From an uncultured Burkholderiales bacterium (GTDB taxonomy: Bacteria; Pseudomonadota; Gammaproteobacteria; Burkholderiales; Burkholderiaceae_C), in the NCBI GenBank assembly GCA_903861115.1, contig CAIOTD010000189.1:1-64000 (forward strand): DNA of 64,000 nt. Direction: 5' to 3'. Below the pieces are notes generated by a model that searched no databases, was not told the DNA's origin, and saw only the letters and a program-made list of their open reading frames with translations. Position numbers and translations under genes: made by a program. Below are positions 10,711-13,170 of this stretch, piece after piece. The stretch's first letter is position 1, and every line of letters starts with the position of its first letter.

Positions 10711-12084
10711 ATGGCTCGCAATACACAAGTTTTAGCAGATCACAACGCTCCCGAAGTCACACGCACATTGGCCGAATTTGTGGTCAACCACCCCTCCAAA
10801 GGCTGGAGTGAGGCGGTTGAACACGAAGCACATCGCACCTTCATGAATTGGCTGGGCTGTGCAGTGGGCGCAGCTCACCACGAGTCCACCCAAGCGGCCT
10901 TGGCGGCCGTCAACATGCTAGAGCCCGCACCCCAGGCGACGCTCGCGGGCTTGAAAGAGCGCGTTGACATTGCCAGTGCGGCCTTGATCAATGGCATTTC
11001 CTCGCACACCTTTGATTTTGACGACACGCACCTCAAAACCATCATTCACCCCGCGGGCCCAGTCGCCTCCGCCGTCATGGCCTTGGCCGAGCACTTGAAT
11101 TCAAGTGGCCGTGAAGTGATTGACGCCTTGGTGCTTGGCATTGACGTGTCTTGCCGCGTGGGCAACTGTTTGTACCCCGATCACTATGACCGTGGATGGC
11201 ACATCACGGGCTCAACGGGCATGCTCGGTGCAGCGGCTGCGTGCGCCCGGCTTTTAAAGCTCAACGTTCATCAAACTCAAATGGCCTTGGGGATTGCAGC
11301 CTCACAGCCCATTGGTTTGAGAGAGCAATTTGGCACCATGACCAAACCCTTCCACCCCGGAGGAGCCGCACGCGCGGGCATGATGTCGGCCTTGATGGCC
11401 TCTAAAGGCTTTACCGCCAGCCCCAAGGCGATCGAAGCGCCCAGAGGCTTTGCCCAAGTGGCCTCCACCAAATACGATTGGAGCGAAATCGACTCCGAGT
11501 TGGGCAAACGCTTTGAGATCAGCTTCAACACCTACAAACCCTTTGCCTGCGGCATCGTGATTCACCCCAGCATTGACGCTTGTGTGCAACTCAAAAACTT
11601 GGGCGTCGTGGCCGACCAAGTTGAAAAAATTGAGCTCAAGGTGCATTCCTTGGTGCTTGAGCTCACTGGCAAAAAAGAACCCAAAGACGGTCTGCAAGGC
11701 AAATTCAGTGTCTACCACGGATGTGCAGCAGGCTTGCTGTTTGGGCGCGCAGGCGAGGAAGAGTTTGCGGATGAGGTGGTCACCAGCCAAGCCGCTCAAG
11801 ACCTGCGTCGCAAAGTGGTGGCCATCGTGGACGACTCCATCGATGAGGCCAGCGCTGACGTCACCGCTTACCTCAAATCGGGCGACCCCATTCATATTCG
11901 CGTCGAACATGCCATTGGGTCTTTAGAAAACCCCATGACCGACAGCTTGCTTGAGAAAAAATTCCACGATTTGAGCGACCCCGTGATTGGACAAGCTCAA
12001 ACCAACGAACTGATCAAATCTTGCTGGTCCTTGGCACAAAGCCCGAACCTCCAAACCCTCCTGAAACAGTGCCTCCCCAGCTGA
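10711..12084 (+). CDS. MmgE/PrpD family protein
   Basis: This is a member of the 2-methylcitrate dehydratase PrpD / cis-aconitate decarboxylase superfamily, 457 residues. It shows the typical N-terminal all-helical domain with 'GCAVGA' near residue 50, 'INGISSHTFDFDDTHL' near 93, 'HPAGPVASAVMALAEHL' near 112, 'GSTGMLGAAAACARLL' near 168, and the lid-domain 'YKPFACGIVIHPSIDA' near 272. Such proteins dehydrate or decarboxylate tricarboxylic and related acids. No prpB or prpC is adjacent, so methylcitrate-cycle membership is not supported. It probably forms a small operon with the upstream Bug gene (78-base gap). Confidence 0.88.
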   Translation: MARNTQVLADHNAPEVTRTLAEFVVNHPSKGWSEAVEHEAHRTFMNWLGCAVGAAHHESTQAALAAVNMLEPAPQATLAGLKERVDIASAALINGISSHTFDFDDTHLKTIIHPAGPVASAVMALAEHLNSSGREVIDALVLGIDVSCRVGNCLYPDHYDRGWHITGSTGMLGAAAACARLLKLNVHQTQMALGIAASQPIGLREQFGTMTKPFHPGGAARAGMMSALMASKGFTASPKAIEAPRGFAQVASTKYDWSEIDSELGKRFEISFNTYKPFACGIVIHPSIDACVQLKNLGVVADQVEKIELKVHSLVLELTGKKEPKDGLQGKFSVYHGCAAGLLFGRAGEEEFADEVVTSQAAQDLRRKVVAIVDDSIDEASADVTAYLKSGDPIHIRVEHAIGSLENPMTDSLLEKKFHDLSDPVIGQAQTNELIKSCWSLAQSPNLQTLLKQCLPS

Positions 12085-12176
12085 ACTGGGCTGAAACGGC
12101 ACCGGAGAATCTCCCTGGGTGCTTGTGTGGCAACACCACCAAGCACCAGGGATTACCCTAAATACAACATGGATTA

Positions 12177-12203
12177 TTAGCACTCACTGACGTAGAGTGC
12201 TAA
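12177..12203 (+). promoter_or_regulatory. CIRCE operator (HrcA-binding inverted repeat) of rpoH
   Basis: The arms TTAGCACTC and GAGTGCTAA are separated by exactly nine bases, a perfect match to the CIRCE consensus recognised by the heat-shock repressor HrcA. The element ends 31 bases before the rpoH ATG. A plausible sigma70 promoter overlaps it: TTAGCA as -35 and TAAAAT (12201-12206) as -10, with an 18-base spacer made mostly of the operator. Binding of HrcA would therefore block polymerase. Presence of hrcA in this genome cannot be checked in the window. Confidence 0.93.
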
Positions 12204-12234
12204 AATGAGGATTCTGCATGAAAGGATTCGCACC

Positions 12235-13170
12235 ATGACTGCTTTAACAACTTTGTCCACACCCTCCACACTCCCAGCGACGTCTTGGGCGCTCATACCG
12301 CCCTTGGGACACTTGGATGCCTACATCTCGGCCGTCAATCGCATGCCCATGCTCACTTTGGAGCAAGAGCAGGCCTTTGCCAAGCAGTTGAAAGACAACA
12401 ACGACTTGGAAGCGGCGGGCAAGTTGATCATGTCGCACTTGAGGCTCGTGGTCTCCGTGTCAAGACAATACCTGGGCTACGGCTTGCCCCATGCCGACTT
12501 GATTCAAGAAGGCAATGTGGGCCTGATGAAAGCGGTCAAACGCTTTGACCCCGAGCAAGGTGTGCGCTTGGTGAGTTACGCCATGCATTGGATCAAGGCA
12601 GAAATTCACGAATACATCTTAAAGAACTGGCGCATGGTCAAAGTGGCCACCACCAAGTCACAAAGAAAACTTTTCTTTAACCTTCGCTCCATGAAGCAAG
12701 GCTTCAAAGCCGACACAGAAGACAGCAACGCACACCGCTTGAATCTCTCTGAATCACAAATTGAACAAGTCGCCAAAGACTTGAACGTCAAACGCGAAGA
12801 AGTGATGGAGATGGAGACGCGCATGAGTGGCGCAGACATCATGCTTGACCCCTCACCCAATGAGGATGGGGAGGAGTCCTATGGCCCCATCTCTTACCTG
12901 ACCGATCTCAATCATGAGCCCACCGCCATGATCGAATCCCATCAGCGCGATGTACTGGCAAGCGACGGCTTGACCCTGGCCCTCAATGCGCTGGACCCCC
13001 GCTCTCGCAGAATCGTACAAGAGCGTTGGCTCAATGTGCGAGACGATGGCTCTGGCGGCATGACCTTGCACGACTTGGCCGATGAGTTTGGCGTGAGTGC
13101 TGAGCGCATCCGTCAAATTGAGACCGCGGCCATGAAAAAAATGAAACAAGCACTCCTAGAGTTTGCTTGA
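12235..13170 (+). CDS. rpoH: RNA polymerase heat-shock sigma factor RpoH (sigma-32)
   Basis: RpoH directs RNA polymerase to heat-shock promoters. The ATG at 12235, preceded by AAAGGA, gives 311 residues; the track start at 12205 lies at the CIRCE edge and is unlikely. Visible parts are region 1.2 'LDAYISAVNRMPMLTLEQEQAFA', region 2 'HLRLVVSVSRQYLGYGLPHADLIQEGN', and 'VRLVSYAMHWIKAEIHEYIL'. The RpoH-specific box 'QRKLFFNLRSMK' and region 4.2 'TLHDLADEFGVSAERIRQIE' near the C-terminus follow. The CIRCE element upstream indicates HrcA control in addition to the usual post-translational control. Confidence 0.97.
   Translation: MTALTTLSTPSTLPATSWALIPPLGHLDAYISAVNRMPMLTLEQEQAFAKQLKDNNDLEAAGKLIMSHLRLVVSVSRQYLGYGLPHADLIQEGNVGLMKAVKRFDPEQGVRLVSYAMHWIKAEIHEYILKNWRMVKVATTKSQRKLFFNLRSMKQGFKADTEDSNAHRLNLSESQIEQVAKDLNVKREEVMEMETRMSGADIMLDPSPNEDGEESYGPISYLTDLNHEPTAMIESHQRDVLASDGLTLALNALDPRSRRIVQERWLNVRDDGSGGMTLHDLADEFGVSAERIRQIETAAMKKMKQALLEFA

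Follow-up and report, generated by a model that had tools for sequence, protein, structure and literature searches.

A CIRCE operator predicted to bring rpoH under HrcA control in an uncultured Burkholderiales bacterium

Is the heat-shock sigma factor gene of this uncultured Burkholderiales bacterium controlled by HrcA, the class I heat-shock repressor? The question is raised by a stretch of 64,000 nucleotides (the window), in which a first-pass annotation had recognized a CIRCE operator within the promoter of rpoH. We compared the locus with the remainder of its assembly (2.79 Mb, 200 contigs, 91.6% complete), with near relatives, and with genomes from across the class.

CIRCE and the promoter of rpoH

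The following features were located ahead of and at rpoH.

12177 to 12185, + strand: left arm of CIRCE, TTAGCACTC; an exact match whose first six bases are the −35-like TTAGCA; kept in 80/80 relatives.
12186 to 12194, + strand: 9-base CIRCE spacer, ACTGACGTA; differs among relatives.
12195 to 12203, + strand: right arm of CIRCE, GAGTGCTAA; its TG-C-TAA is the first part of the extended −10.
12201 to 12206, + strand: sigma-70-type −10, TAAAAT; shares bases with the right arm, and the AT at 12205-12206 is invariant in the aligned rpoH upstream regions (81/81).
12222 to 12227, + strand: AAGGAT, a ribosome-binding-site-like AAGGA motif with a flanking base, read from the sequence shortly 5′ of the start codon.
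12235 to 13170, + strand: rpoH, heat-shock sigma factor sigma-32, 311 aa (TIGR02392, 394.7 bits; cut-off 323.1).

The element at 12177-12203 is a perfect CIRCE, TTAGCACTC-ACTGACGTA-GAGTGCTAA. It has the inverted repeat of an HrcA operator (TTAGCACTC-N9-GAGTGCTAA) with 0 mismatches (18/18 arm bases) and a 9-base spacer, and it ends 31 bp ahead of the rpoH start codon (12235). The first-pass annotation was right about the arms and the spacer; it had placed the end at 12206 by taking in the 3′ half of the −10 (TAAAAT, 12201-12206), and CIRCE itself stops at 12203. This is the sole match in the window at up to 3 mismatches, and dinucleotide shuffles give a mean of 0.04.

The operator overlaps the only sigma-70-like promoter at 12080-12300, that of a heat-shock gene. 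This promoter consists of TTAGCA (12177-12182), an 18-bp spacing and TAAAAT, the latter made an extended −10 by a TG one base farther 5′, and matches the consensus at 9/12 positions; shuffles give 0.2. The first six of the nine left-arm bases make up its −35-like hexamer, and the TAA that closes the right arm opens its −10, which bears out the overlap of both hexamers with the arms proposed earlier. The match is modest (9/12), and rpoH transcripts could also start farther upstream or arise by read-through from an MmgE/PrpD-family gene whose end is at 12084. A pattern scan of 11901-12240 found no sigma-32 promoter ahead of rpoH.

The alignment of rpoH relatives starts at residue 1 of the 311-aa form, and an AAAGGA-type motif is seen again in their rpoH upstream regions. 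An in-frame ATG at 12205 would lengthen the ORF but overlaps the −10.

Conservation of the rpoH site and co-occurrence with hrcA

Near relatives were represented by the best 80 rpoH loci in the genome collection. These come from Comamonadaceae and kin, including Limnohabitans, Acidovorax, Variovorax, Polaromonas, and Comamonas. CIRCE with 0-2 mismatches lies shortly before rpoH in 80/80 of these loci, so that the comparison of upstream regions suggested in the first-pass annotation came out in favor of the site. In the window, too, CIRCE is immediately upstream of an orthologous rpoH (TIGR02392 over cut-off). The arms are almost fixed in the alignment and the spacer is variable, as would be expected of an operator. 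The invariant AT occupies positions two and three past the right arm (81/81 rpoH sites) and completes TAANAT; no other column among the first 15 downstream approaches this invariance. In 27 groE CIRCEs, CAA and CAG are the triplets seen most often behind the right arm, and NAT is rare. We therefore ascribe NAT to the promoter of rpoH and not to a preference of HrcA.

For the class-wide survey, 140 genomes of the GTDB Gammaproteobacteria (Burkholderiales included), almost all one per GTDB family, were searched for rpoH, CIRCE, and hrcA. The rpoH upstream regions were read class-wide, with 19 genomes joined from rpoH and CIRCE coordinates. Among the 130 genomes with rpoH, CIRCE (up to 3 mismatches) stands at rpoH in 90/98 with hrcA versus 5/32 without detected hrcA (Fisher p about 5e-16, which is indicative only, as family-level genomes are not independent). 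CIRCE at rpoH is thus widely conserved, beyond the few bacteria reported before. The sites, the genes, their geometry, their conservation, and the co-occurrence are direct observations.

The five genomes with a CIRCE-like rpoH site and undetected hrcA are G131 (L152), G138 (L189), G034 (L190), G101 (L119), and G085 (L121); either hrcA is absent from the assembly or the operator is orphaned, and drafts may have missed genes. Eight genomes have hrcA and no CIRCE at rpoH (G117, G082, G151, G124, G054, G031, G154, and G044). In the rpoH upstream regions of G117 (L132) and G054 (L197), the right arm GAGTGCTAA alone is intact, possibly a decayed CIRCE where the −10 stayed. The rpoH upstream region of G028 (L164) carries a second GAGTGCTAAAAT half-site directly 5′ of a full CIRCE, which suggests a duplicated operator/promoter unit.

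That the rpoH site arose by chance, or reflects mere ancestry without present function, is scarcely credible. Nothing positive speaks for this explanation except possible shared descent. The shuffle expectation remains at 0.04 even at 3 mismatches, the site is associated with hrcA across families, and the free spacers beside fixed arms in the 80 relatives already contradict it.

The two arms do not change alike. A3 of the left arm is replaced by G (TTGGCA) in 28/95 class-wide rpoH sites, and the mirror change is seen in 2/95 (p about 1e-7, indicative); TTGGCA is nearer to the −35 consensus TTGACA than TTAGCA is. Class-wide, most sites retain the right-arm TAA, on which the −10 depends. In groE CIRCEs, the A3-to-G skew is not significant (5 vs 2 of 27). 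Such lopsided changes are what a combined operator and promoter would show. They also bear on the idea that the inverted repeat is an mRNA stem-loop in the rpoH leader and not a DNA operator. Perfect palindromes are able to fold, and in some groE leaders CIRCE lies within the transcript. At rpoH, however, the repeat and the promoter hexamers fall together, so that transcripts of that promoter begin downstream of the repeat; moreover, the presence of the repeat tracks hrcA, and most changes affect one arm only (A3 to G, no mirror change). We therefore regard a stem-loop as very improbable.

A sigma-E promoter overlapping CIRCE in relatives

In the class-wide alignment, GGAACTT stands at −16 ahead of CIRCE and TCTAA or TCTCA begins at CIRCE position 8, with a spacer of 16-17 bp. 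We take GGAACTT-N16/17-TCNNA to be the sigma-E (RpoE) promoter consensus. GGAACTT (at least 6/7) occurs within 25 bp upstream of 40/76 class-wide rpoH sites (shuffled mean 2.9), 33/80 near-relative rpoH sites (shuffled mean 3.2), and 0/27 groE sites. In near relatives, the element lies 4 bp closer to CIRCE and its −10 is fully inside the spacer at position 12; in those with rpoE, the CIRCE spacer thus contains the sigma-E −10 (TCNNA), which the spacer in the window does not. Since there are two registers (position 8 and position 12), the sigma-E element keeps its own spacing yet shifts against CIRCE.

The element follows the sigma factor gene. Class-wide, it was found in 54/68 genomes with rpoE versus 0/8 without. 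Among 50 near relatives, the figures are 21/21 versus 0/29 with a register-matched criterion chosen after the data had been seen, and 21/25 versus 0/25, still strong, with a looser earlier criterion (at least 5/7, any register). The looser criterion scored 4/29 rpoE-less relatives as positive; these hits disappeared once the alignment register was demanded. The p-values of these comparisons are inflated by shared ancestry, and part of the near-relative contrast may reflect one or few losses in a freshwater clade.

Where GGAACTT would be expected, the window reads ACAACAT or similar, and it contains no TCNNA in register. A sigma-E-dependent rpoH promoter, present in many relatives, is accordingly absent here, and no protein in the genome comes near the RpoE-family cut-off (best match 24.7 bits, cut-off 236). 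HrcA may hence be the only recognizable transcriptional input to rpoH in this genome. E. coli differs on both counts: its rpoH region has multiple promoters, one of them sigma-E-dependent, and it lacks HrcA (no match in a PF01628 control search), whereas the genome of the window has CIRCE and no RpoE-family match over the cut-off.

We lean towards a general reading, in which rpoH promoters of HrcA-bearing members of the class would commonly be three-way composites. One CIRCE would lie over a sigma-70 and a sigma-E promoter, so that one repressor gates the housekeeping and the envelope-stress input. The sigma-E −10 would be in register at position 8 in most and at position 12 in Comamonadaceae-like members, and genomes without rpoE, the clade of the window among them, would not have the element, leaving HrcA as the remaining input.

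Predicted circuit and known systems

The first-pass annotation had named a lack of hrcA as grounds for dropping its proposal. The gene is present in the same assembly in one copy (L011:4966-6006; PF01628 and PF03444 both over cut-off), which also encodes one GroEL and one RpoH over the family cut-off. CIRCE occurs twice in the whole assembly at up to 2 mismatches, both times perfect, at groES-groEL (L010:947-973) and at rpoH; none was found in the grpE-dnaK region or upstream of hrcA in this genome. Of the further sites to be searched, groESL, dnaKJ, and grpE, the first was therefore confirmed and grpE-dnaK was not. A poor third match (3 mismatches, contig C2, L003) is within the range of the reversed-pattern control, which gave one match, and was set aside.

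Directly 5′ of the groESL CIRCE is CTTGAAA-N12-CCCCTATA, and CTTGAAA-N13-CCCCATTT is found at the grpE ORF upstream of dnaK, which was identified by sequence and place; both resemble the sigma-32 consensus. The groESL CIRCE is likewise perfect and would be read by the same HrcA; unlike the rpoH CIRCE, it has a sigma-32-type promoter ahead of it and no NAT behind it. From CIRCE at rpoH and groESL, we predict that HrcA controls these two, and from the sigma-32-type promoters at groESL and grpE-dnaK, that RpoH controls the latter two. The earlier proposal that rpoH is under the class I repressor, joining systems that are separate in E. coli, gains support at the sequence level from hrcA, conservation, and co-occurrence with hrcA.

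It is highly probable that CIRCE serves as an HrcA operator within the housekeeping promoter of rpoH and forms a feed-forward loop with groESL, the sigma-E input being missing here. We infer HrcA binding, repression, and loop dynamics at rpoH as follows. HrcA on CIRCE would cover both hexamers, most likely occluding RNA polymerase, and hold rpoH transcription at a low level. When heat or unfolded protein diverts GroEL, HrcA activity would fall, and rpoH and groESL would be derepressed together. Fresh sigma-32 would then also drive groESL and grpE-dnaK via their sigma-32-type promoters. With HrcA on rpoH and groESL and RpoH on groESL, the loop would be a coherent feed-forward one that closes when GroEL reactivates HrcA. 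In relatives with rpoE, the same operator would cover the sigma-E promoter too. GroEL control of HrcA in this organism is presumed by analogy, as GroE has been shown to stimulate HrcA in B. subtilis, Chlamydia, and H. pylori (PMC6032397); such GroE-dependent activity would tie the rpoH site to protein-folding stress.

Alternatively, HrcA binds and the output of rpoH is nevertheless set mainly after transcription, by an mRNA thermometer, chaperone control, and sigma-32 proteolysis as in E. coli, with CIRCE trimming the basal level only. We consider this possible, if rather unlikely. Sigma-32 of E. coli is controlled by chaperone binding and degradation (summarized in PMC6032397), and the rpoH site is missing in some families with hrcA (8/98). 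Against this, the arms are near-perfect in genomes that differ widely, and most genomes without detected hrcA lack the site; the rpoH CIRCE is for these reasons under selection, which does not give its share of the control.

The wiring of CIRCE to rpoH has itself been predicted before, and the window is a further case. In 2003, Permina and Gelfand reportedly described the HrcA/CIRCE regulons of beta-, gamma-, and epsilon-proteobacteria, and they may already have listed rpoH. Profiles of these authors for the three groups were used in Geobacter sulfurreducens, where CIRCE at rpoH was predicted computationally, with a perfect site at −51 (PMC545781, Table 8). The kind of prediction that the first-pass annotation mentioned for some betaproteobacteria thus exists for a deltaproteobacterium. 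G. sulfurreducens shares with the window a perfect TTAGCACTC-N9-GAGTGCTAA close ahead of rpoH and CIRCE at groESL; CIRCE in Geobacter is also at hrcA-grpE-dnaK-dnaJ, whereas in the genome of the window it is at groESL and rpoH only. The overlap with −10 and −35 and the sigma-E promoter come from our analysis, and the accessible part of PMC545781 makes no mention of them for Geobacter. A search of the open-licence literature turned up no paper that treats HrcA jointly with a sigma-E promoter of rpoH. Nor did it yield the quantified breadth, the promoter-driven arm asymmetry, or the overlap with sigma-E promoters and their co-distribution with rpoE.

Heat-shock control by HrcA and control by sigma-32 are usually treated as alternatives. 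Our survey suggests that they are wired in series in most HrcA-bearing families of the class and that E. coli-like lineages without HrcA are the exception. Because CIRCE overlaps a sigma-E promoter that is absent without rpoE, it can be tested directly whether cytoplasmic and envelope stress are integrated within one stretch of about 45 bp.
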